From: a virus
Strand: one strand, 5' to 3'
IMG/VR virus record: IMGVR_UViG_3300028025_001349
Location: 1-21,512 of that record
DNA: 21,512 bases
This document shows, piece after piece, positions 578-11,883 of the stretch. Numbering within the stretch: the first letter of the stretch is position 1; every line of letters begins with the position of its first letter. The notes beneath the pieces are model-generated. The model ran no database searches, was not told the DNA's origin, and saw only the letters and a program-made list of their open reading frames with translations. Position numbers and translations under genes: made by a program.

Positions 578-1146
578 TGTTTATGTTCGATGTTGAAACA
601 CTGGGAGTAGAATCCAACTGCGTGGTTCTCTCTGCAGCTATGGTTCACTTTGATCCAGAGAAACGACCAACCTATCAAGACTTGTTGGACAATGCATGCT
701 TTGTAAAGTTCGATGTCAAGGAACAGATGGGTGTTGGTCGTACTGCATCTAAATCTACACTTGAGTGGTGGAAAGGTCAGCACGAATATGTTCGTAAGAC
801 TTCTCTTGATCCATCTCGTGAAGACATGACTGTGGAAAATGGAATGCAAAAGTTCTATGATTACATGAAACAATTCCCAAATGCTGATAAACAAACTATG
901 TGGGCACGAGGTTCATTAGACCAGATGGCAATTGATTCGCTTGCTGTTAAATTTGCCTTGCAAGAGATTACAGGGTATAATATGTGGAGAGATGTCAGAA
1001 CTGCAGTTGACATTATGTTTGGAACTACAAATGGCTATGTAGAAGTGGATCATCCTCTCTTCAAACGACATGAAGTTATCAAGCATCATCCTGTTCACGA
1101 CTGCGCACTTGACGCAATGCAACTTATGTATGGAAAACAAGTTTAA
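577..1146 (+). CDS. dexA: DexA-like 3'-5' exonuclease (DEDDh type)
   Basis: This 189-residue protein has the layout of a DEDDh 3'-5' exonuclease of the RNase T/DexA type. The first motif is FDVET at residues 4-8 (D5, E7), a middle Asp lies at D115 (SLDQMAID), and the last motif is H170 with D175, five residues apart as expected for the general-base His and final metal ligand. T4 DexA is a 3'-5' DNA exonuclease encoded among early genes. The start overlaps the preceding TAA by one base and the stop overlaps the polymerase start the same way. The symbol is by family resemblance; another DEDDh exonuclease of this group is the main alternative. A promoter-like sequence lies inside the gene at 953-981. 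Confidence 0.8.
   Translation: MFMFDVETLGVESNCVVLSAAMVHFDPEKRPTYQDLLDNACFVKFDVKEQMGVGRTASKSTLEWWKGQHEYVRKTSLDPSREDMTVENGMQKFYDYMKQFPNADKQTMWARGSLDQMAIDSLAVKFALQEITGYNMWRDVRTAVDIMFGTTNGYVEVDHPLFKRHEVIKHHPVHDCALDAMQLMYGKQV
953..981 (+). promoter_or_regulatory. Promoter-like site inside the dexA-like gene, upstream of polymerase
   Basis: TTGCCT at 953-958 and TATAAT at 976-981 are separated by exactly 17 bases. The left part reads TTGCCTTGCAA, identical for 11 bases to the site at 4186 and with the same distance to TATAAT. Transcription would start near 988, giving a leader of about 160 bases before the polymerase gene. Confidence 0.5.
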
Positions 1147-3641
1147 TGGAATTTTACACCAGCGTCCACCCAGTGGGCGACAAGATCCTCGTTAGAGGGT
1201 ATCAAAATGGCAGGGCATATCAGCGTAAGGTAGATTTCTATCCTACGCTTTTTGTCACTTCTAAGGTTGAATCAAAATGGAAGACTCTGGAAGATACATT
1301 CGTTGATGAAATAAAACCTGGAGGTATTCGTGAGACTCGAGACTTCATCAAACGCTATGATGGTGTTGAAGGATTCCCAGTTTACGGTAACACCAACTAC
1401 GCATATCAATACATCAGTGACACCTACGAAGACGATGTCAACTGGGATATGGAACAGATTAAAGTTTACACCATTGACATTGAGACTGAAACTGAGAATG
1501 GATTCCCAGATATTAAGTCTGCCAATGAAGAGGTTCTGCTAATCACTGTCAAGGATCTTCAGTCCAAGAAAGTTATTACCTTTGCTCAAACAAAGTATGG
1601 CGAGTATAAATCTACTCGTTCAGATGTTACGATGGTCAACTGTCGTGACGAACAGCACATGCTCAAAGAGTTTATGATTTGGTGGCAAGGTAATTATCCA
1701 GATGTCATCACTGGTTGGAACACTGACTTCTTTGATAATGTTTATTTGATACATCGTATTCAGCGAGAGTTGGGTGACACATTTGCCAACAAGATTAGTC
1801 CTTGGGGTTATGTCAATCAACGCAAGACTTTCATTAAAGGTAATGAAGAGATTCACTATGACATTCTAGGTATTTCTCAGCTGGACTATCTGGAACTTTA
1901 CAAGAAATATACATATACAAAGCAAGAGTCATATCGTTTGGATTACATCGCTGGTGAAGAACTCGGTGATGCCAAGAAAGAGAATCCAGGAAATGACTTC
2001 AAAGACTTCTACACCAATCACTGGGATATGTTTGTTGAGTATAACATTCATGACGTAGAGTTGGTTGATAAATTAGAAGACAAGATGCGTCTGCTTGAGT
2101 TGCACCTGACCATGGCATACAATGCGAAGATTAATCCTGAAGATGTTTACTCACAAGTCCGTATGTGGGACACTATCATTTATAATCACCTGCGTAAGAA
2201 AGGTATTGTGATTCCAGCGAAGGCATACTCTGGTAAAGATGCTCAGTTCGAAGGTGCTTATGTTAAAGATCCGATGATTGGTATGCACAAGTGGGTTGTT
2301 TCCTTTGACTTGAACAGTCTGTATCCTCACTTGATTATGCAGTATAACATCAGTCCAGAAACTCTAACATCAGAGAAGTTGTCAGTCACTGTTGACAAGT
2401 TACTCAACAAAGAGATTGACACAGACTATCTCAAACGAAGAGACCTTGCCATGACTGCCAACGGCTGGACATATCGCAAAGACATCAAAGGGTTTATGCC
2501 TGAGTTGATGGAAGAGATGTATATCAATCGTTCCAAGTTTAAGAAACAGATGTTGAAAGTCGAACAGGAATACCAAAACGATAAGACAAAGGTACACCTG
2601 TTGAAAGATATCTCTCGTCTTAATAATCTGCAGATGGCAATGAAGATTGCTCTTAACTCTGCTTATGGTGCGATGGGTAATCAATACTTCCGTTACTTTG
2701 ATATTAGAATGGCAGAGGGTATCACGACTTCTGGTCAACTGTCCATTCGTTGGATGGCGAACAAGTTGAATGCATTCCTCAACAAGACTCTCAAGACAGA
2801 GGGTAAAGACTTTGTTATTGCGATTGACACTGACTCAATCTATCTTACACTTGAACATCTCATTGAGAAAGTTTGCGAAGGTAAGAACACTGAGCAGAAG
2901 ATCAAGTACATGGATAAGATTTGCGAAGATGTGTTTCAACCATTCATTGATCAAGGCTACACCGAACTATCAGATTACATGAATGCGTATAGTCAGAAGA
3001 TGGTTATGAAGCGAGAGGTTCTTGCCGATAAAGCCATCTGGACTGCAAAGAAAAGATATGTCATTAATGTTCACAACTCGGAAGGAGTTCAGTTTGCGAA
3101 ACCTAAGATCAAAGTTATGGGTCTTGAGATGGTCAAGTCATCTACACCTGCGGTTATTCGTGACAAGTTGCGTGATTCACTTCAAGTTATCCTCGCAGGG
3201 GATCAAAAAGATCTACATACATATGTTATGGAGTTTAGAAAAGAGTTTGATAAATTACCGATTCAAGAGATTGCTTTCCCACGAGGTGTGAATGGATTGA
3301 AGCAGTATGCAGGCAGTCCAATTTATACAAAGGGTACACCAATTCATGTTCGTGGTTCATTGCTGTTCAATCATCACTGCAAGCGTCTAGGTATTGATAA
3401 GAAGTATCAGCCAATTCGTGATGGAGATAAAATTAAATTTGTGTATGCTCGTACACCGAATCCTTTTAATGAAGATGTGATTGCATTCCCTCAGGTTCTT
3501 CCAAAAGAGTTTAAAATGGAAGCATACATAGATTATGACAAGATGTTTGAAAAGGTATTTCTTGATGCTCTTCAGATTGTCATTGAACCACTAGGTTGGA
3601 AGACGCAAGAAGAAAGTTCATTGGAGGATTTCTTTGGCTAA
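1146..3641 (+). CDS. 43: Family-B DNA polymerase, T4 gp43 type
   Basis: This is the replicative DNA polymerase with proofreading. The 831 residues contain the exonuclease motifs DIETE (D111, E113), WNTDFFD (191-197) and YNIHD (299-303). They are followed by polymerase motif A FDLNSLYP (387-394), motif B ending in NSAYGAMGN (504-512) and motif C DTDS (561-564). All catalytic acidic residues are present. It is slightly shorter than T4 gp43 (898 aa). The ATG overlaps the exonuclease stop (TAATG). The C-terminus is SLEDFFG, in the position where T4/RB69 gp43 carries its sliding-clamp-binding peptide. The last codons also hold the GGAGG ribosome-binding site of the next gene. Confidence 0.97.
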   Translation: MEFYTSVHPVGDKILVRGYQNGRAYQRKVDFYPTLFVTSKVESKWKTLEDTFVDEIKPGGIRETRDFIKRYDGVEGFPVYGNTNYAYQYISDTYEDDVNWDMEQIKVYTIDIETETENGFPDIKSANEEVLLITVKDLQSKKVITFAQTKYGEYKSTRSDVTMVNCRDEQHMLKEFMIWWQGNYPDVITGWNTDFFDNVYLIHRIQRELGDTFANKISPWGYVNQRKTFIKGNEEIHYDILGISQLDYLELYKKYTYTKQESYRLDYIAGEELGDAKKENPGNDFKDFYTNHWDMFVEYNIHDVELVDKLEDKMRLLELHLTMAYNAKINPEDVYSQVRMWDTIIYNHLRKKGIVIPAKAYSGKDAQFEGAYVKDPMIGMHKWVVSFDLNSLYPHLIMQYNISPETLTSEKLSVTVDKLLNKEIDTDYLKRRDLAMTANGWTYRKDIKGFMPELMEEMYINRSKFKKQMLKVEQEYQNDKTKVHLLKDISRLNNLQMAMKIALNSAYGAMGNQYFRYFDIRMAEGITTSGQLSIRWMANKLNAFLNKTLKTEGKDFVIAIDTDSIYLTLEHLIEKVCEGKNTEQKIKYMDKICEDVFQPFIDQGYTELSDYMNAYSQKMVMKREVLADKAIWTAKKRYVINVHNSEGVQFAKPKIKVMGLEMVKSSTPAVIRDKLRDSLQVILAGDQKDLHTYVMEFRKEFDKLPIQEIAFPRGVNGLKQYAGSPIYTKGTPIHVRGSLLFNHHCKRLGIDKKYQPIRDGDKIKFVYARTPNPFNEDVIAFPQVLPKEFKMEAYIDYDKMFEKVFLDALQIVIEPLGWKTQEESSLEDFFG
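3623..3636 (+). promoter_or_regulatory. Ribosome-binding site deciding a TTG start
   Basis: GGAGG at 3623-3627 is followed by six bases and then TTG at 3634. This near-ideal spacing, with no ATG nearby, supports TTG as the start of the hydroxylase-like gene and places the site inside the last codons of the polymerase. Confidence 0.65.
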
Positions 3642-4185
3642 TATTAGAGTTATTAAAACTGGTATCAATGTATCAAAGATACTGAAACAGTTGCAACAAT
3701 ACCCAGAAGACTGGGGTGCTCAGAAAAACATTGAGGGTGTTCATGACTTAGTGGATGAGTTAGGATTCCCAGCAGTGTCTGCTGGTGTATTGCAATTAGT
3801 TATGGGTGGTGTTCATTCTATGGATGAATATGTTGGAGATACAGAATTGTGTATTCCAACTCCTGCAATGCGTAAACATACTGAAGTTATTAGGTTCTTG
3901 CAACGAAACTTCAAACGATTTAGTCGTTGTGGGTTTTTATCATTACCAGTCGGTGGAGAAGTTGGGCAACATATTGATGTGGGTAGTTATTACCTAACCA
4001 GAGATAGATACCATCTTGCAATACAAGGATCCTATGTTTATACTGTTGGTGGAGAATCTTTAAAGATTAATGCTGGCGATCTAATATGGTTCAATAATAA
4101 ACTACCACATGGAACCAAAAATGTTGGTGATGTTGTAAGAATTACATTTGTGTTTGATGTTCCACATTCCAAGAACAATCCATAG
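3634..4185 (+). CDS. Aspartyl/asparaginyl beta-hydroxylase-like 2OG-Fe(II) oxygenase
   Basis: This 183-residue protein resembles the Asp/Asn beta-hydroxylase family of 2-oxoglutarate- and Fe(II)-dependent oxygenases. The iron ligands are H113 and D115 (GQHID) and H159 (LPHGT), and R169 is the likely 2-oxoglutarate-binding Arg. RYHLAIQG (125-132) and GDLIWFNN (148-155) are typical of the fold. The start is a TTG supported by GGAGG six bases upstream, overlapping the polymerase stop by 8 bases. Substrates of phage members are largely unknown; a host or phage protein side chain is the family-based expectation. It is only distantly related to the TET/JBP enzyme further on. The gene ends the polymerase cluster, and a promoter-like site follows directly. 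Confidence 0.8.
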   Translation: MANIRVIKTGINVSKILKQLQQYPEDWGAQKNIEGVHDLVDELGFPAVSAGVLQLVMGGVHSMDEYVGDTELCIPTPAMRKHTEVIRFLQRNFKRFSRCGFLSLPVGGEVGQHIDVGSYYLTRDRYHLAIQGSYVYTVGGESLKINAGDLIWFNNKLPHGTKNVGDVVRITFVFDVPHSKNNP

Positions 4186-4214
4186 TTGCCTTGCAACAAA
4201 ACTTACTGTATAAT
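4186..4214 (+). promoter_or_regulatory. Promoter-like site before the thioredoxin gene
   Basis: TTGCCT (4186-4191) and TATAAT (4209-4214) are exactly 17 bases apart in one of the few real intergenic gaps of the first block. The 11 bases TTGCCTTGCAA recur at 953. A small perfect dyad, GTTGC-CTT-GCAAC (4185-4197), covers the -35 region and could bind a dimeric regulator. Transcription would be expected near 4221, only about 5 bases before the ATG, which would leave the AGGAGA (4215-4220) largely outside the message. The exact start site is therefore uncertain. Confidence 0.55.
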
Positions 4215-4225
4215 AGGAGATATAA

Positions 4226-4477
4226 ATGAAGCTGTTAAAATTTTATGCTGAGTGGTGTGGTCCATGCAAAGGACTTACTATGATTATCAATGGCGCAAAA
4301 GATAAGATTAATATTCCAATTGAAGAATATGATATTGATAATGAAATGTTTATGGCACAAGATTACAAAGTTCGATCTGTTCCAACTCTTGTTTTAGTTG
4401 ATGATAAAAATCAAGAAATCAAACGAAGTGTTGGTTTACTCACTGAAGAGAAATTACTAGAATTCCTGAAAGGTTAA
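4226..4477 (+). CDS. Thioredoxin/glutaredoxin-like protein
   Basis: This is a short thioredoxin-fold protein of 83 residues with the active site WCGPC at residues 10-14 and the cis-proline region SVPTLVL (about 51-57). It is shorter than bacterial thioredoxins (about 105-110 aa), mainly because the N-terminal strand and helix are missing, which is common for phage versions. T4-type phages use such proteins to reduce their ribonucleotide reductase, but no reductase is in this window, so the partner is unknown. AGGAGA lies six bases upstream of the ATG. The gene is followed after one base by uvsX. Confidence 0.88.
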   Translation: MKLLKFYAEWCGPCKGLTMIINGAKDKINIPIEEYDIDNEMFMAQDYKVRSVPTLVLVDDKNQEIKRSVGLLTEEKLLEFLKG

Positions 4478-4478
4478 T

Positions 4479-5555
4479 ATGGCAAGCATACTAGACAAAA
4501 TTAAAAAGAATACAACTATCAAAGACTCTGCGATTCTATCTGAATCAAAGTTCTTTAAGAAGAAGGATATGATTCCTACTTCTGTTCCAATCATCAATGT
4601 GGCTTTATCAGGTCGTCTTGATGGTGGACTCACTCCAGGAATTACAATGTGGGCTGGTCCAAGTAAACACTTTAAGACTGCATTCAGTTTGTTAATGGCT
4701 AAGTCCTACATGGACAAGTATGAAGATGCAGCATTGTTGTTCTATGATTCAGAGTTCGGTACTCCGCAGTCTTACTTCGATACATTTGGTATTGATACAA
4801 AGCGAGTTGTTCATACTCCATTGACTGATGTGGAACAATTGAAGTTTGATATTATGCAACAGCTGTCCAATGTAGAGCGTGGTGATCATTTGATTATCGT
4901 TATTGACTCCATTGGTAATCTGGCTTCTAAGAAAGAAGTTGAAGATGCCATGGAAGGTAAGTCTGTTGCAGATATGTCAAGAGCAAAACAGATGAAGTCA
5001 TTGTTCCGTATGGTAACTCCACACTTAAACCTTAAAGACATTCCACTCGTTGTAGTGAACCATACATATATGGAGATCGGAATGTTTCCGAAAGCCATCG
5101 TTGGTGGTGGCACTGGTGCAATGTACTCAGCTGATAACGTATACATTCTTGGTCGCCAGCAAGAAAAAGAAGGTACTGAGATTGTAGGTTACAATTTTAT
5201 TATCAACGTAGAGAAGAGTCGTTATGTTAAAGAAAAATCTAAGATACCTGTTAGCGTATCTTTTGATGGTGGTCTTAGTAAGTGGAGCGGTTTGCTCGAT
5301 CTTGCTCTTGAATCCAAGCATGTGGTCAAACCAAGTAACGGATGGTATTCCAAGTGTGACCCTGAGACTGGCGAAGTAGAAGCCAAGAAATATCGTCTCA
5401 AAGAAACTGATGATAAAGACTTTTGGTTATCGATTCTTACAAGTAAATCATTCTATGATTTTGTAAAGAACAAATACTCAATTGGTCAGGGTGGACAAAT
5501 GATGCAAGAAGATGAACTTGATAAAGCATTAGAGGAATTAGAATTCGATGAGTAA
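4479..5555 (+). CDS. uvsX: UvsX, RecA-like recombinase
   Basis: This 358-residue protein is the phage strand-exchange recombinase. The Walker A motif is GPSKHFKT at residues 60-67, the characteristic UvsX variant of the RecA P-loop. Walker B is LIIVIDSIG around residues 138-146. A Gly-rich segment, GGGTGAMYSADN (about 209-220), corresponds to DNA-binding loop L2. The C-terminus is acidic (EELEFDE), as in T4 UvsX. UvsX loads on ssDNA with UvsY and drives recombination-dependent replication. It lies directly upstream of the gp40-position gene and gp41, the T4 order. Its stop overlaps the next ATG by 8 bases. Confidence 0.95.
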   Translation: MASILDKIKKNTTIKDSAILSESKFFKKKDMIPTSVPIINVALSGRLDGGLTPGITMWAGPSKHFKTAFSLLMAKSYMDKYEDAALLFYDSEFGTPQSYFDTFGIDTKRVVHTPLTDVEQLKFDIMQQLSNVERGDHLIIVIDSIGNLASKKEVEDAMEGKSVADMSRAKQMKSLFRMVTPHLNLKDIPLVVVNHTYMEIGMFPKAIVGGGTGAMYSADNVYILGRQQEKEGTEIVGYNFIINVEKSRYVKEKSKIPVSVSFDGGLSKWSGLLDLALESKHVVKPSNGWYSKCDPETGEVEAKKYRLKETDDKDFWLSILTSKSFYDFVKNKYSIGQGGQMMQEDELDKALEELEFDE

Positions 5556-5880
5556 ACCTTATATTGTAGTTGAGTCCAAATACAGTGGACATGATGCGAT
5601 AAAGTTGACAGAATACCCATGGGAGGGTATAATCTATACATACGGTAAGATTGAGTTTGAAGAAGACGAAGCAAACTCGACCTTACATTTAAAATTTGAT
5701 TATGAAATTCTTGATAACAACGGCAAGGGATTTACTGATAACGCACCATTTGAAAAATACATTGGTAAGATATTGGAAGAATTGCTTCATGAAGGTATCC
5801 AAGAAAACAATTTAACATATACAGGCGGAACAGAAATTGATGCGAATAGAACAAAAGATTCTGAGCAATCTGATATTTGA
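5548..5880 (+). CDS. Small protein in the gp40 position (possible head-vertex chaperone)
   Basis: This 110-residue acidic protein lies between uvsX and gp41, exactly where T4 carries gene 40 (about 114 aa), the chaperone involved in starting the head vertex. The size and position match, and it has the soluble alpha/beta composition expected, but I cannot confirm the family from residues alone. A GAGGAA sequence lies about 10 bases before the ATG, inside the end of uvsX. The last 41 bases overlap the gp41 gene in a different frame. A perfect sigma70-type promoter sequence (5605-5633) lies within its coding region. Confidence 0.7.
   Translation: MSKPYIVVESKYSGHDAIKLTEYPWEGIIYTYGKIEFEEDEANSTLHLKFDYEILDNNGKGFTDNAPFEKYIGKILEELLHEGIQENNLTYTGGTEIDANRTKDSEQSDI
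5605..5633 (+). promoter_or_regulatory. Perfect consensus sigma70-type promoter inside the gp40-position gene
   Basis: TTGACA (5605-5610), 17 bases, then TATAAT (5628-5633), preceded by GGG. It lies in coding sequence where it reads LT...II, so the match is not forced by a protein motif shared with the other sites. Predicted transcription from about 5640 would serve gp41 (start 5840) and possibly the modification cassette. Confidence 0.6.
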
Positions 5881-7231
5881 TGAGAATTATTGTCGTAAAG
5901 TAATTCCATTTATCAAGAAAGAATATTTTGCAGATCGTAAAGAAGTAATCTTGGCAGACGAGATTGTTTCTTTCTTCACGAAGTATAACAAACCAGCATC
6001 CAAAGAAATCCTACAGATTGAAATTAGTAATAGGAAAGACCTCAACGATAAAGAGTTATCTGAAATTGGCGACTTTATCGGCACATTGAGTCAGGAACCA
6101 GTCAATGAAGACTGGATGTTAGAACATACTGAAAAGTTTTGTAAAGATAGGGCAGTTTATAATGGAGTTCTCTCAGCAATCAGAATCATTGACGGCAACG
6201 ACAAGCAACACACGAAAGACGCTATTCCATCTATTCTTTCTGATGCTCTTGCCGTTTCATTTGATAATCATATTGGTCACGACTATCTTGATGACCACAA
6301 TGAAAGGTATGATTTTTATCACAGGGTGGAAGAGAAGATTGCATTCGACCTTGACATGTTCAATAAAATCACTAAGGGTGGACTATCAAAGAAAACACTT
6401 AATATCTGTCTTGCTGGCACTGGTGTTGGTAAGTCTTTGTTTATGTGTCACGTGGGTGCTGGTTGTTTAGTCCAAGGTAAAAATGTGTTATACATAACTA
6501 TGGAAATGGCAGAAGAGCGCATCGCTGAAAGGATTGATGCGAATCTTCTTAACCTAACCATGGATGAACTAAAAGTTATTGACAGGGATATCTACGAAAG
6601 TCGTATTGCCAAGATTACAGCTAAGACTAAAGGTAAACTAATTGTCAAAGAATATCCAACTGCTGGTGCTCACTCTGGTCACTTCCGTGCTTTGCTGGAA
6701 GAACTAAAGTTGAAACGAGAATTTAAACCTGACATTATTTTCATTGACTATCTCAATATTTGTGCGAGTCAGCGAATGAAGCAAGGTGGCTCAATTAACT
6801 CTTATACATATATTAAGAGCATTGCAGAAGAACTAAGAGGATTGGCAGTTGAGTATAATGTTCCTATTGTATCAGCCACTCAAACTACTCGATCTGGATT
6901 CACAAACTCGGATCCAGGACTTGAAGATACCTCTGAATCTTTTGGTTTGCCAGCGACAGCTGACTTTATGTTTGCTTTGGTCAGCAATGAAGAGTTAGAA
7001 GGTTTGAATCAGATTATTGTTAAACAGTTGAAGAATCGCTATAACGATCCAGGATTCTATAAGAGATTTGTTATTGGAGTTGATCGAGCGAAAATGAAAC
7101 TGTATGATGTAGAAGCATCGGCACAAACGCTAAGTGATTCAGGAAAGCATGATGACGATGAACCAGTATTTGATAAAAGTAATTTTGGTCGTAGACAAAA
7201 AGCAGAATCATTCGAAGGATTTAAATTTTAG
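5840..7231 (+). CDS. 41: Replicative DNA helicase, gp41 (DnaB family)
   Basis: This 463-residue protein is the hexameric 5'-3' replicative helicase. The N-terminal helical region (about 1-150) is followed by a RecA-type core with Walker A AGTGVGKS (192-199), the YITMEM segment (218-223) and Walker B IIFIDYL (about 291-297). Later come the SATQTTRS sensor-like segment and an Arg-containing C-terminal core. I chose the ATG at 5840 over an in-frame TTG at 5837; AGGCGGA lies about 10 bases upstream. The gene overlaps the previous one by 41 bases. The C-terminus, SFEGFKF, resembles the clamp-binding-like tails of the polymerase and TET/JBP enzyme. The next gene follows after nine bases that contain AGGAGA. 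Confidence 0.95.
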   Translation: MRIEQKILSNLIFDENYCRKVIPFIKKEYFADRKEVILADEIVSFFTKYNKPASKEILQIEISNRKDLNDKELSEIGDFIGTLSQEPVNEDWMLEHTEKFCKDRAVYNGVLSAIRIIDGNDKQHTKDAIPSILSDALAVSFDNHIGHDYLDDHNERYDFYHRVEEKIAFDLDMFNKITKGGLSKKTLNICLAGTGVGKSLFMCHVGAGCLVQGKNVLYITMEMAEERIAERIDANLLNLTMDELKVIDRDIYESRIAKITAKTKGKLIVKEYPTAGAHSGHFRALLEELKLKREFKPDIIFIDYLNICASQRMKQGGSINSYTYIKSIAEELRGLAVEYNVPIVSATQTTRSGFTNSDPGLEDTSESFGLPATADFMFALVSNEELEGLNQIIVKQLKNRYNDPGFYKRFVIGVDRAKMKLYDVEASAQTLSDSGKHDDDEPVFDKSNFGRRQKAESFEGFKF

Positions 7232-7240
7232 GAGAAAGTT

Positions 7241-8602
7241 ATGGTGAAGATAATTGTAGCAGATAATAAAATCAATTGTGAACATCTTATTGGACAGTTT
7301 GTCGATGAGAGTCACTATGATCATTTACTTGAAGAAGACTGTGATGTTTACATGCCAGCCAACTGCGATCTAGCAACTCAAGCTGAGTGCGAACAAGAGT
7401 GTTCTTCTTGCGATATCGGTGCAGATGAAAGACGAATTGTTTTAAAGTTCCGCAAGAACTACTTCAGTAAAGAACAACAAGATGCAGCGTATGCTGGTCT
7501 CCGTGAAGCTGCAACTGAAACACAGAATCGTGGTGCTGCAGCTGGTCCACGAAATGAGAAGTTGGGTAATCGTGAATGGGTCACTGAATACGAATCAGAC
7601 ATCATTGAATACTTCTTGGATCCAAAGGCATCACTGGATGGAGATCCAATTGATGTTATTAAATCCAAGCACGAAGGTAAGACTGATAAACCATCCACAC
7701 GAAATAATGTTTGGGGTATTCAAGCAGTTAAGAAAGACGGATTCGTTTTCAATGAGTGGGTAGAAAGAGTTCGTAAGTTAGATGCAACTGAAATGATTTC
7801 AGAAGCAAGACGAATCGAGAAAGCATATGTTTGTGCAACTACCTATGCCAATGGTGTTATGTCTGGTATTGCTGGATGGTTCGATCGTTATCCTCGCATT
7901 CCTTATGGTCGTGCAACATCTTATACTGCGAGAAATCCAGAGAAGTTTGCCATGGCATATCCATTCCTCCAGCAACTTGCTGTAGGTTTCAAAGAGTTAC
8001 TACCATGGCGATATAATAATCAGATGGAAGCAGCAAAGAAACTAGATCCTGCTTTCTTAGTTCCTGGAACTCCATTCACTACTATCACTGTGAACAAAAC
8101 ATTCCGCACTGCTGCACATAGAGATGCTGGTGATTTGAAAACTGGTTTGAGTAATCTCTTGGTTCTTTCCAATAATGGTAACTACTCTGGTGGTTATTTG
8201 ATTGCTCCAGAATATCGTGTTGCCGTAAATGTAAGACCTGGAGATTTGTTACTCATTAACAATCATGATGTTATCCATGGCAATACACCAATCGTATTAA
8301 ACGATGCAACAGCAGAGCGTGTATCATTGGTATGTTACTTCCGTGAGAAGATGGCTGAGTTGGGATCTAAAGAGTATGAAGATTGTCGTTATGACTTTGT
8401 TGAGCAACGTAGACTTAACAAAGAACATCCAGACCAAAAGTATGAAGATGGTTCACAACGACATCTTTGGAATGGTGTCAGTCCTTCAATGTGGGATTCT
8501 CAAGAGTGGTATGAATATCTTGAGAGCAAACTTGGTCGTGAAACTTTAATGAAGTATCATCCAGATGCGCAAGAGGCAAATTCACTTGAAGGATTCTTCT
8601 AA
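7241..8602 (+). CDS. TET/JBP-type 2OG-Fe(II) DNA base dioxygenase
   Basis: This 453-residue protein has the signature core of the TET/JBP dioxygenases, which oxidise the 5-methyl group of thymine or 5-methylcytosine in DNA. Iron ligands are H293 and D295 in TAAHRDAGD and H346 in HGNTP; R360 (AERVSL) should bind 2-oxoglutarate. GGYLIAPEYRVAVN (317-330) and RPGDLLLIN (332-340) match the family. The N-terminal 60 residues carry an unusual cysteine cluster (C34, C42, C50, C54, C57), possibly a zinc site. The C-terminus is SLEGFF, like the polymerase tail. AGGAGA precedes the ATG. Genes downstream encode the kinase and transferase that phages pair with hydroxymethylated bases. Thymine versus methylcytosine is undecided; no C5-methyltransferase is in the window. 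Confidence 0.85.
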   Translation: MVKIIVADNKINCEHLIGQFVDESHYDHLLEEDCDVYMPANCDLATQAECEQECSSCDIGADERRIVLKFRKNYFSKEQQDAAYAGLREAATETQNRGAAAGPRNEKLGNREWVTEYESDIIEYFLDPKASLDGDPIDVIKSKHEGKTDKPSTRNNVWGIQAVKKDGFVFNEWVERVRKLDATEMISEARRIEKAYVCATTYANGVMSGIAGWFDRYPRIPYGRATSYTARNPEKFAMAYPFLQQLAVGFKELLPWRYNNQMEAAKKLDPAFLVPGTPFTTITVNKTFRTAAHRDAGDLKTGLSNLLVLSNNGNYSGGYLIAPEYRVAVNVRPGDLLLINNHDVIHGNTPIVLNDATAERVSLVCYFREKMAELGSKEYEDCRYDFVEQRRLNKEHPDQKYEDGSQRHLWNGVSPSMWDSQEWYEYLESKLGRETLMKYHPDAQEANSLEGFF

Positions 8603-9294
8603 TGTGTTCAGTAATTGGAGCAATTATTAAAGAACCTCGTGCAGAGGATTTCTTAATGCTTCATCGTGTGTTCCTTGAGTCTAAGATTCGAGGGATGCAC
8701 GCTACTGGAATCTCCTATGTTAAACATGGAAAGATTATCACTGAGAAGCGACCAGTACCTGCCGATGAATTCCCATTTAACTTTCCAAGTTATGTGAATG
8801 AAGATGGTAGTCTTTATATGATTGGGCACTGTCGTTACAGTACCAGTGATTTAGAATTCAATCAACCAATTGCCAATGAGAATCTTTCGGTAGTCCACAA
8901 CGGAGTTATCACTCAAGAGTTACCTGAGAAGTGGAAAGAACTTTATGGCTATGATTGTGAAACTAAAAACGATACTGAATTGATTTTACACACTGCAGAA
9001 GATTGCATTAGTCCATTGATTCGTTGGAAAGATTCTAGTCTTGCAGTGATTGAGTTGCATGTTGATAAAGTTATTAGATTTTATCGCAATGGTAAGCGTC
9101 CATTATATTTGACATCTATCTCAAATGGGTGTATAATTACTTCTACTGCTGATGTTCCAAAACGTGCAGAAGTTCCAGGATTCCCGATTAATACTTTGAT
9201 GAACCATTACATTACATTTGATGACCAACTTGCAATGACTATTGAAAAAGAAGTCATTGAAGATGCGGTGGACTTACAATATGAACTTTGTTAA
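8602..9294 (+). CDS. Class-II glutamine amidotransferase (Ntn-hydrolase) domain protein
   Basis: This 230-residue protein is a stand-alone glutaminase domain of the GlmS/PurF type. Cys2 becomes the N-terminal nucleophile after Met removal (MCSVIG), which fixes the start. Substrate-binding residues of the family are present: R78 in HCRYST, N100-G101 in HNGVI and D124 in NDTEL. There is no attached synthase domain, so it should supply ammonia to, or modify, a partner encoded elsewhere. Its place inside the modification cassette suggests amidation or amination of a base adduct or donor; this is inference. The ATG overlaps the TET/JBP stop by one base, and GAAGGA lies upstream. A perfect sigma70-type promoter sequence lies inside at 9109-9137. 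Confidence 0.85.
   Translation: MCSVIGAIIKEPRAEDFLMLHRVFLESKIRGMHATGISYVKHGKIITEKRPVPADEFPFNFPSYVNEDGSLYMIGHCRYSTSDLEFNQPIANENLSVVHNGVITQELPEKWKELYGYDCETKNDTELILHTAEDCISPLIRWKDSSLAVIELHVDKVIRFYRNGKRPLYLTSISNGCIITSTADVPKRAEVPGFPINTLMNHYITFDDQLAMTIEKEVIEDAVDLQYELC
9109..9137 (+). promoter_or_regulatory. Perfect consensus sigma70-type promoter inside the amidotransferase gene
   Basis: TTGACA (9109-9114), 17 bases, then TATAAT (9132-9137), preceded by GGGTG. Expected transcription from about 9144 would serve the GNAT, transferase and kinase genes, uncoupling the second half of the cassette from the TET/JBP gene. Confidence 0.6.
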
Positions 9295-9922
9295 TTCAAC
9301 GAGAGTTGAAGAGTTAATTAAAACTAGCCCAGCTGGTAAGAACACCAAGTTCTTATCGGCTGCACATTCATTGTGGTATCGCTTTCATAACTATGACAAA
9401 GCACCTCCACTTGCGTATGAAGTTAATGGTGAAGTTGTTTCGTTAATCTTTGCCACATTCAATCGTGATAGTTATAGTAATCTTTACGAGATTGTTACAC
9501 TTGAAGGTAATGAAGGTAAGGGTTACGCATCGAAGTGTTGGGATGCATGGATTGATTATGCAGTTAAAGAAAGAAAGATGACTCGACTAAAGATGTCTTG
9601 CACTCCTTCTTCAGTTACGTGGCACTACAAGAATGGTTTGATTTGGTGGGCAGTTGATCCAACAGGTTCACTTCGTTCAGACCAACCACTGTTTCCAACA
9701 AGAGCAGAACAGATTGCGTATCGTGACTTTGCCATTGTGAATCCACTTCAAGCACTACCACCATACAAAGCAAGAGATCAATTTCGTGCTGAGGGTTTGG
9801 AAGCATACAAGTGGGGTGAGAAGAAGAAAGCCAAAACTCAAACAGCAATTGATGCAGTTGGCAAAGCATGGTTACGTGAAGCATTAATGGAACAACCATC
9901 ACTTGAAGAGTTTTTATTATAA
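9281..9922 (+). CDS. GNAT-like N-acyltransferase
   Basis: This protein of about 213 residues has a GNAT-type acetyl-CoA-binding segment, EGNEGKGYASKCWDAW (75-90), following a beta-rich half (AYEVNGEVVSLIF, 45-57). The frame is open from 9242, but the ATG at 9281 has GGTGGA about 8 bases upstream and gives a sensible N-terminus; the ATG at 9263 is an alternative. It overlaps the amidotransferase gene by 14 bases and the next gene by one (TAATG). GNAT proteins recur in phage base-hypermodification clusters, where they may acylate an amino group added to the base; that role is inferred from context. The C-terminus is SLEEFLL, like the polymerase tail. A host-protein acetyltransferase is possible. 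Confidence 0.7.
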   Translation: MNFVNSTRVEELIKTSPAGKNTKFLSAAHSLWYRFHNYDKAPPLAYEVNGEVVSLIFATFNRDSYSNLYEIVTLEGNEGKGYASKCWDAWIDYAVKERKMTRLKMSCTPSSVTWHYKNGLIWWAVDPTGSLRSDQPLFPTRAEQIAYRDFAIVNPLQALPPYKARDQFRAEGLEAYKWGEKKKAKTQTAIDAVGKAWLREALMEQPSLEEFLL

Positions 9923-10941
9923 TGGATTACAGATTAGAACAAAATCGTAGGGAAGCGTTCATTCGCTGGTATGCATGGTCATTGAAGTATGATGATTGTG
10001 ATCCAGCAGTATGGGCAACGAACTATCTAAACAAAAGATACGAACATAACGATGAACAGAAGTTGTGGTTGTGCTGGTTGTATGGTAATACATACTATCT
10101 TCCAACTGCTTGGATTCTCATGAATGAGTTTCCAGACTTCGAGTTGGCAACAGTTGATCGTATCACTCAATGGAACACTGTCAACTATAAACGATTAAGA
10201 TATCAGACTGATACAAAGTGGAACAAGGGACATCTCCCTGCGATGTTTGCTTCTTATCAGCAATTCATTGGCGATAAGACACAACGAGAAAAACTGGAAG
10301 AATACTATGGACAATCTGAGGAAGAGAACTTTAATAATCTCTGGACAGGCATTAAGTCTGGGCTGCATAAGTTTGGTCGTTATTCCACTTGGTTTTATCT
10401 TCAGCATCTTAAGCATACTGCTGGTGTGCGTATCACTCCTACTAGCCTCATGTTGGATGATTACGATGGCTCTCGCTCTCATCGTAATGGATTACTTCTC
10501 GCCCTTGGGAGGGATAACGATATGGATAGAAAACTCACTGGAGTCGATTATTCAAATCTGGAAGCACAAGCGAGGGAAATTCTCAGTGAAACGAAAGCGA
10601 GATTCCCAGAATTGGACTCCCAAATAGATTACTTTACAATGGAAACCTGTTTGTGTTCTTTCAAGAAGATCTTCAGAAAGAGTCATGGAAGGTATCTTGG
10701 ATACTATCTTGATAGACAAGCAGAAGAAATTATGCAGTGTGAGAAAGATGGATGGTATGGTATTGATTGGAATGTTCTATGGCAGTCAAGAGAAGAAACT
10801 ATTGACTTGAGATTAGACCATAGACATGGTATTGATAAAGAGAAATTTACATCATTCCTTAACACTGGCAAAATGCAGAATATGGAATGGATGTTTGATG
10901 ATGAAGAACCTATATTAAATGGATTGGAGATGTTTACATGA
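9922..10941 (+). CDS. Amino-acid:DNA transferase-type protein (glutamyl/putrescinyl-thymine pyrophosphorylase family)
   Basis: This 339-residue, probably helical protein resembles the alpha-glutamyl/putrescinyl-thymine pyrophosphorylase family, called amino-acid:DNA transferases in hypermodifying phages. These act on a phosphorylated hydroxymethyl base and attach an amino acid or amine. Recognisable segments are WLYGNTYYLPTAW (52-64), NEFPDFE (68-74), KWNKGHLPAMF (99-109), DDYDGSRSHRNGLLLALG (179-196) and ETCLCSFKKIF (241-251). I identify it by overall sequence pattern and by its TET/JBP and kinase neighbours, not by a single catalytic motif. It starts one base inside the GNAT stop and ends overlapping the next ATG (ATGA). 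The tail GLEMFT is a weaker version of the clamp-like peptide. Confidence 0.75.
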   Translation: MDYRLEQNRREAFIRWYAWSLKYDDCDPAVWATNYLNKRYEHNDEQKLWLCWLYGNTYYLPTAWILMNEFPDFELATVDRITQWNTVNYKRLRYQTDTKWNKGHLPAMFASYQQFIGDKTQREKLEEYYGQSEEENFNNLWTGIKSGLHKFGRYSTWFYLQHLKHTAGVRITPTSLMLDDYDGSRSHRNGLLLALGRDNDMDRKLTGVDYSNLEAQAREILSETKARFPELDSQIDYFTMETCLCSFKKIFRKSHGRYLGYYLDRQAEEIMQCEKDGWYGIDWNVLWQSREETIDLRLDHRHGIDKEKFTSFLNTGKMQNMEWMFDDEEPILNGLEMFT

Positions 10942-11348
10942 GCAATATTACAATTGATAGCAATGGAAACTTTGGTATTGGAACTGTGAGCCCAAATGGT
11001 AGTATTACAGTTTCTACCACTAGTGGAACAAGTGCTGTATCTTCTAGCAGTTTATCATTCGGTGGATTCGACATGGAAGATTTTCTTGATACACATTCGT
11101 TCAATAAGATTACAGTTGAACATAAGGTTGCGGAGTTCGAGTTAGCCAAGTTAAGAGAAACTGTACCAACCTATGCAGATGAGATTAAAGAAAACTTGTC
11201 CAAGAATCTTGCACGGGATATAATTAAGAAAGCAACATTTACTAAGAAGCATAGTATTGATAGCGATACTCATCACTTTCTAGGAAGAGTGTGGGTATTT
11301 ACTGAAGGTGAATTAAAGGATCTAATTAATGAGGCTCGCAATGCGTAA
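10938..11348 (+). CDS. Small protein with a tail-fibre-like GNFGIGT motif, unknown function
   Basis: I do not recognise this 136-residue protein as a whole. Residues 6-23 read like the NGNVGIGTTSP motif that marks many phage tail-fibre and collar proteins (here SNGNFGIGTVSPNG). A Ser/Thr-rich linker follows (24-43), and then a charged, mostly helical domain (about 55-136). The ATG overlaps the transferase stop, so it is cotranslated with the modification cassette although its N-terminus looks virion-like. It could be a structural protein displaced among early genes, or a domain that has borrowed the motif. The end overlaps the start of the kinase gene. Confidence 0.75.
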   Translation: MSNITIDSNGNFGIGTVSPNGSITVSTTSGTSAVSSSSLSFGGFDMEDFLDTHSFNKITVEHKVAEFELAKLRETVPTYADEIKENLSKNLARDIIKKATFTKKHSIDSDTHHFLGRVWVFTEGELKDLINEARNA

Positions 11349-11883
11349 GATTATCGCTGTTGGTGGACAACCTGGAACTGGTAAGACTACTCTGTTCCGT
11401 AAGTTTATGGAAGGTAAGACTTGGGAGAAAGTCGAACCAAAGAAGATGCTACCTGCACTTTATTCTAAAGAACTAGACTTATACATTCTCGGTAAATATG
11501 AGGATGGTGAAACCTTCGCTGGAACAGATCGTCTTTCAATGGCAGTCCAGCCGATTGTTCAGGAGTTCGTCAAAGAAACCACCTCCAATATTCTGTTCGA
11601 AGGAGATCGAATCTTTAATCAATCTTTCTTGGAATTCGTTATGAATACACAAGGTGTTGATTTACAAGTAGTTTATTTGAAAGTACCTGATTCCACACTA
11701 AAAGAACGCTACATCGAGCGAGGATCCGACCAGTCTGAGACTTTCCTAAAAGGTCGTGCGACTAAATATAGTAATCTACTATCAAACTTTGAACTGATGC
11801 CCTATATTACCGAGTTTAGCAACACTAACTTAGAGGAGCAGGGAAAGGTACTCGCATTCTTGGAGAATAATTTCAAGATGTAA
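11341..11883 (+). CDS. P-loop kinase, 5-hydroxymethyl-pyrimidine DNA kinase type
   Basis: This 180-residue P-loop kinase has Walker A GGQPGTGKTT at 8-17, a distinctive GKYEDGETFAGTDRLSM segment (51-67) and EGDRIFN (87-93). A lid-like RYIERGSDQ segment lies near 123-131. The GTDRLSM pattern, as I recall it, belongs to phage kinases linked to base hypermodification, where the hydroxymethyl of 5-hydroxymethyl-dU in DNA is phosphorylated to make a leaving group. An in-frame ATG at 11329 exists; I prefer 11341 because GAGG lies six bases upstream and the protein then begins directly at the P-loop strand. With the TET/JBP enzyme and transferase it completes the expected oxidise-phosphorylate-replace order. 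A free-nucleotide kinase is the alternative. Confidence 0.78.
   Translation: MRKIIAVGGQPGTGKTTLFRKFMEGKTWEKVEPKKMLPALYSKELDLYILGKYEDGETFAGTDRLSMAVQPIVQEFVKETTSNILFEGDRIFNQSFLEFVMNTQGVDLQVVYLKVPDSTLKERYIERGSDQSETFLKGRATKYSNLLSNFELMPYITEFSNTNLEEQGKVLAFLENNFKM

Follow-up and report, generated by a model that had tools for sequence, protein, structure and literature searches.

The C-terminal tails of the window

We analyzed a 21.5 kb fragment of a T4-like phage from IMG/VR (record IMGVR_UViG_3300028025_001349, positions 1 to 21,512; hereafter the window), in which a DNA polymerase and several putative DNA modification enzymes end in similar short peptides. From the left, the window encodes a DexA-like exonuclease, a gp43-type polymerase, a cupin/hydroxylase-like protein, a thioredoxin-like protein, UvsX and a gp41 helicase. 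After the helicase come a TET/JBP oxygenase (TET), a glutamine amidotransferase, a GNAT protein, an amino acid:DNA transferase (ADDT), a small protein and a P-loop kinase. The first-pass annotation had reported that the polymerase, helicase, TET, GNAT and ADDT end in nearly the same peptide, and had proposed that these tails bind the phage sliding clamp, gp45. All five peptides are present, on the + strand of the window:

1146..3641, + strand: family B DNA polymerase, gp43 type (PF00136/PF03104, phrog_262)
3618..3638, + strand: polymerase tail, EESSLEDFFG, PIP-like L-x-x-F-F
7241..8602, + strand: TET/JBP 2OG-Fe(II) dioxygenase, presumed base hydroxylase (PF12851, E 1e-26)
8582..8599, + strand: TET tail, ANSLEGFF
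9281..9922, + strand: GNAT acetyltransferase-like protein (PF00583, weak match)
9899..9919, + strand: GNAT tail, QPSLEEFLL
9922..10941, + strand: ADDT (PF18724, E 2.8e-22, 80 bits, cut-off 26.2)
10921..10938, + strand: ADDT tail, LNGLEMFT, a weaker form (relatives have GLEEFF, GLEAFFV and GLENFL)
5837..7231, + strand: gp41-type replicative helicase (PF03796, phrog_19)
7208..7228, + strand: helicase tail, AESFEGFKF, probably apart from the modification system

The five tails were less uniform than had been described. Those of the polymerase, TET and GNAT are close to one another and have L-x-x-aromatic in full at the extreme C-terminus. The ADDT has a weaker form, and the helicase differs in the spacing of its aromatic residues. 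The polymerase, TET and GNAT tails fit the clamp-binding type found in the T4 genome (gp43, SLDFLFG; gp55, SLDFLYEAND; gp33, TLDFLL), and both L-E-D-F-F and L-E-G-F-F satisfy the PIP consensus hxxaa (as quoted in PMC3012046). AlphaFold modeled TET with a mean pLDDT of 74.5 and placed the tail beyond the domain as a short, helix-like terminus with a pLDDT of ~68, which is consistent with such a motif and is not evidence for it. The TET domain itself has the HxD...H...R residues, with H293, D295, H346 and R360 invariant among 21 homologues. Based on homologue starts, GNAT probably begins at ATG 9281 and not at the upstream TTG 9242.

We dropped the helicase from the set because its tail, SFEGFKF, is common in T4-type helicases generally. 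Nearly identical tails occur on cyanophage helicases (S-B43 and S-SKS1) and on that of Sinorhizobium phage phiN3 (together L242, L243 and L244). This tail is probably a separate feature of T4-like helicases, and is perhaps an interaction motif of its own.

Conservation, gene context and rarity

We found that the tails are conserved. In a set of 80 related and 24 more distant contigs, the motif was kept in 41/42 polymerases, 102/103 TETs (L-[ED]-x-F-F, down to ~45% identity), 71/71 GNATs (L-[ED]-x-F-[LF]) and 67/67 ADDTs (L-[EDG]-x-F). Individual residues of the TET tail shifted while the pattern stayed constant (SLEGFF, SLEEFFG, TIEDFFG, GLDEFFG, TLDEFFG and TLDSFFS), and its final two Phe were invariant in 21 homologues. 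ADDT tails included GLEMFT, GLEAFA, GLENFL, GLEEFF and GLEAFFV.

Such peptides might also be a by-product of translational coupling, if a Shine-Dalgarno-like GAG/GAA-GGA and an A+T-rich spacer before an overlapping gene encoded Glu-x-Phe-Phe. In most cases the TET, GNAT and ADDT genes do overlap the following gene or lie directly against it (87/102 motif-bearing TET loci), and GAAGGA lies at Shine-Dalgarno distance within the TET tail. However, the polymerase tail was unaltered in five loci without an overlapping cupin gene (L023, L066, L068, L070 and L078). TET tails were retained where the next start is 3-14 nt past the stop (13 loci), and also before different downstream genes (L066, L075, L079, L080, L135, DLP6 and C48C1). 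The Ser and Leu codons of the tails vary synonymously (TCA/TCG/TCT and CTT/TTG/TTA), and the tails of the Ackermannviridae (NLLSMM) follow the same logic and contain neither F nor GGA. No homologue set lost the tail whenever the next gene was uncoupled. On this context, codon and cross-lineage evidence we rejected the ribosome-binding-site reading, which we consider very improbable.

The first-pass annotation had proposed this comparison of homologues with differing downstream genes, and had held that loss of the tail wherever the next gene does not overlap would speak against clamp binding. The tails persisted before other neighbors and before non-overlapping genes, and so that pattern of loss was not what we found. 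GNAT and ADDT loci with a truly distant next gene were few because many next genes use overlapping TTG starts, which were not counted in the scan. The ratio of nonsynonymous to synonymous polymorphism (pN/pS) of the tails was only partly informative, because the tails vary in length by a single residue at the end and had not been brought into a common register.

The tails are also restricted to these proteins. A C-terminal [STG][LIF][DE]xF, no more than 2 residues from the end, is expected in 0.08-0.22 proteins per genome. Three near-full genomes of same-family relatives had four each (P for the excess, 1e-6 to 8e-5). In two of these relatives the four were the polymerase, TET, GNAT and ADDT; in the remaining one, the helicase took the place of GNAT. 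We then scored all open reading frames (ORFs) of a genome for C-terminal similarity to its own polymerase. TET and GNAT ranked 1st and 2nd in G001 and G002 (of 229 and 262), and TET ranked 1st in G003. The ADDT is the weakest accepted member of the set because it ranked only 28th of 229. As a control, gp55 and gp33 of T4 came 1st and 2nd of 267 ORFs when compared to gp43.

Short hydrophobic-acidic C-termini could resemble one another by chance. The motifs are short, and similar ends occur on some unrelated proteins (GIDDFF on the baseplate hub and SLLGILQ on the tail tube). The pattern excess in the near-full relatives argues against chance, as do conservation in more than 60 loci per enzyme and the rank test described below, which no random draw equaled. 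We regard chance as the least probable of the explanations considered here.

Co-variation with the polymerase tail in other phages

We found that the tails of modification enzymes co-vary with the tail of the polymerase in the same phage. This is the strongest evidence from sequence that these are polymerase-type clamp tails, because it comes from phages that were not used in forming the idea. In C48C1, the polymerase ends in TLEDFFG, TET in SLEEFFV and an N6-adenine methyltransferase in STLDAFFG. In DLP6, the ends are TLDSFFA (polymerase) and TLGDFFV (TET). In two further contigs (L148 and L151), the polymerases end in TLEDFFG and TLEEFFG and the TETs in SLEEFF and SLEDFF; the gene after TET, a TET-associated glycosyltransferase (TAGT; PF20691 match in L151), ends in NSLEDFF. 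In Caulobacter phage Cr30, the polymerase ends in DLSSLFD and a weak TAGT match in DLSKLF.

The Ackermannviridae have another type of tail. Their polymerases end in VNLLSMMG or VNLLAMMG and their ADDTs in VNLMSLMK or VNLLSMLG. Their 5-hydroxymethyldeoxyuridine (5-hmdU) kinases end in NVLAMML, NLLAMLL or SLLGLL (HMUD2) and ANLLNMM (HMUDK_hel). In Cygsa01, the polymerase ends in SVMDFFS, two kinases in SVLDLF and NVFDLF, and the ADDT in NDLMGFFQ.

From seven genomes that do not belong to the window family, we took every TET, ADDT, HMUD2 and HMUDK_hel, with no members added post hoc, and combined their ranks. The summed log rank for these 15 enzymes was -60.2, compared to a null mean of -12.8, and 0 of 1,000,000 random draws reached -60.2. 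The lineages are not fully independent, two being Ackermannviridae. Ackermannviridae enzymes scored 19-35 against the polymerase tail of their own lineage and 5-13 against others. In TET-bearing lineages, own and foreign polymerase tails scored similarly, the tails being alike, and the clean swap contrast is that between the Ackermannviridae, Cr30 and FF-type lineages. For DLP6, the annotated polymerase gene was used in both the own-versus-foreign scores and the summed rank test.

Other proteins in these genomes had ends of a similar kind. A 103 aa protein of Cygsa01 (L181:1399-1710 (-)) ends in NSLLDFF, and a 71 aa protein of ChubbyThor (L169:6711-6926 (-)) ends in VNLLSLMRK. Each matches the polymerase tail of its own phage, and both are candidate gp33-like late transcription factors. 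The large terminase subunit of Cygsa01 (L175:1-1710) has the clamp-tail-like end GGSLDDFFNN; this might connect packaging with the clamp, or the likeness may be due to chance. In Nonlabens phage P12024L (L247:2676-4071), TAGT ends in NQLEIF and the adjacent methyltransferase in QQTLF, and TAGT relatives (L272 and L273) end in NQTQLF and NQTTLF. These TAGT and methyltransferase ends are candidates for the bacterial beta-clamp-binding motif, QLxLF (PMC11139829), which they resemble. In the window, the small gene 3' of the ADDT gene (10938-11348) encodes a Gly/Thr/Ser-rich N-terminus that is highly variable among close relatives and a C-terminal part that is conserved.

Probable recruitment to the sliding clamp

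In the window and in several unrelated phages, modification enzymes end in the type of peptide with which the polymerase of their own phage is expected to bind the clamp, which suggests that modification occurs at the clamp during copying. A gp45-type clamp is encoded in five relatives of the window (G001-G004 and G006) and aligns with the T4 and RB69 clamp structures at E values of about 1e-27 to 1e-24. No gp45 gene is within the 21.5 kb window, which does not extend that far. PMC3012046 lists the residues of the RB69 pocket. In the gp45 of this family, I107 and F109 are retained, and R32, Y39, V217 and W199 are replaced by I, M, Y and S, respectively. Positions 32, 39 and 217 stay or become hydrophobic.

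Based on these results, we think it likely that the tails of the polymerase, TET and GNAT, and less certainly that of the ADDT, are clamp-binding short linear motifs of the gp43/gp55/gp33 type that recruit the enzymes to gp45 to act on new DNA. The gene-context and co-variation results support this core of the first-pass proposal; its inclusion of the helicase and its claim to novelty were not upheld, nor do all T4-like phages with DNA modification carry such tails.

Several observations weigh against clamp recruitment. Trp199 of the pocket is lost in the gp45 of this family. The virus is uncultured, and its DNA is inferred to be hypermodified from gene content. In Cr30, the ADDT and TET ranked 117th and 32nd of 266 for similarity to their own polymerase tail. 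A prediction made in advance for phage S-B43, as a held-out test, was not supported: CmoX ends in KEVLSKL and CmoY in SGQGTLPL. In S-B43 the gene for the polymerase is split or truncated, and a search of 200 kb of its sequence did not find the polymerase C-terminus. In T4, neither alpha-glucosyltransferase, which binds gp45, nor beta-glucosyltransferase, a non-binder, has a polymerase-like C-terminus. The tail is therefore not the sole route to the clamp, and the expectation that all modifying T4-like phages carry such tails fails for both T4 enzymes and for CmoX. Finally, two proteins of the pathway in the window lack the tail:

8602..9294, + strand: class II glutamine amidotransferase-like protein (PF13522), ending in DLQYELC, not clamp-type
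11341..11883, + strand: P-loop nucleotide kinase of the hypermodification cluster (PF18751, E 3e-10), with the tails KVLAFLENNFKM and alike, not clamp-type

Also in S-B43, a gp33-like protein ends in AKLPL and the DNA-acting ligase CmoY in GTLPL (polymerase, gp33-like and CmoY observations: L242:4016-6298 (-), L242:47774-48589 and L245:44793-45062 (-)). As negative controls, the clamp tail was absent from the TETs of HTVC112P, P12024L and S-CBWM1 and from the ADDTs of Montesquieu and VioletZ. These five phages are presumed to lack this replisome; in S-CBWM1, a search for a family B polymerase found none.

Our results might also indicate that the tails bind a shared hub other than gp45, such as the clamp loader, the single-stranded DNA-binding protein or another part of the replisome. 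For the tails described here, gp45 is a predicted partner. In addition, the ADDT, HMUDK_hel and an annotated DNA methyltransferase of Vibrio phage VPALA (L157:3920-7112) share the identical end STAKRLW, unlike that of their own polymerase, and a search for a T4-type clamp (gp45) in VPALA detected none. STAKRLW is perhaps a shared tail for another hub, and shared tails can thus serve one. In contrast, gp45 is the known partner of gp43-type tails (PMC2988020, PMC3012046), and the tails track the polymerase tail type lineage by lineage. We consider a different hub unlikely, though less so than coupling or chance.

If gp45 is the partner, flexible C-termini would dock the enzymes in its hydrophobic pocket, leaving their catalytic domains free to work on freshly made duplex behind the fork. 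A base would be oxidized by TET/JBP (5-methyl to hydroxymethyl), the kinase and ADDT would then attach a larger group, giving the hypermodification, and GNAT would act further on that group. The benefit may be quick and complete masking of new DNA from host nucleases.

Clamp-bound DNA modification is not new as a concept. The first-pass annotation knew of no clamp-tethered modification system, but T4 alpha-glucosyltransferase on gp45 is a precedent (PMC13216743, PMC6024577). The interaction was reported in 2004 (Sommer 2004) and confirmed by pull-down; of the alpha and beta enzymes, only alpha-glucosyltransferase bound gp45 in vitro (PMC13216743). The in vivo share of alpha and beta linkages has been put down mainly to expression and not to gp45 binding. 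Alpha-glucosyltransferase is a phage enzyme that modifies DNA and associates with the clamp, as we propose for the enzymes described here, but it is a single enzyme acting on hydroxymethylcytosine, and its C-terminus is not polymerase-like (rank 51/266). The C-termini of T4 gp43, gp55 and gp33 are interchangeable ligands of gp45 (PMC2988020). They share with the window tails a flexible, hydrophobic-acidic S/T-L-D/E-x-F-like end and several carriers per phage. However, the T4 carriers are the polymerase and late transcription factors, whereas here they include base modification enzymes.

ViI-like thymidine hypermodification (5-hmdU DNA kinase and ADDT; PF18747, PF18723 and PF18724) uses the same ADDT family, and the Ackermannviridae enzymes have polymerase-type tails. 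The window differs in having a TET/JBP oxygenase and another type of polymerase tail, and no clamp link for ViI-like pathways was found in the papers searched. DNMT1 binds PCNA in replication-coupled maintenance methylation (PMC4575159). It too is a DNA-modifying enzyme with a clamp-binding region, but it is eukaryotic and unrelated, with that region in its N-terminal regulatory part, and the likeness is an analogy only. Bacterial QLxLF is likewise a short linear clamp-binding peptide, with a different clamp and consensus, and is not in the window. In the open-access literature searched, we found no paper joining PIP or clamp motifs to phage hypermodification enzymes beyond T4 alpha-glucosyltransferase, and no multi-enzyme, sequence-readable version across unrelated phages.

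We lean toward a general rule, that enzymes modifying polymerized DNA are recruited to replication by a peptide that binds the clamp in use for copying that phage's DNA, and that these peptides were gained independently. The tail types that the rule would plausibly cover are gp45-type FF, Ackermannviridae NLLSMM and bacterial beta-clamp QLEIF/QTTLF (P12024L-like phages). Its enzymes would, on balance, be TET/JBP, ADDT, 5-hmdU kinases, GNAT, TAGT glycosyltransferases and methyltransferases. Clamp tethering is directly testable because each tail is so short that it could be deleted with the catalytic center left intact.

Little is understood of how phages with multi-step pathways modify bases fast and fully after replication. 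A general use of clamp tethering would explain how the enzymes reach new DNA ahead of host nucleases, and a match to the phage's own polymerase tail would provide a sequence handle for finding unknown DNA-modifying enzymes. The interaction of T4 alpha-glucosyltransferase with gp45 would then be one case of a wider design.

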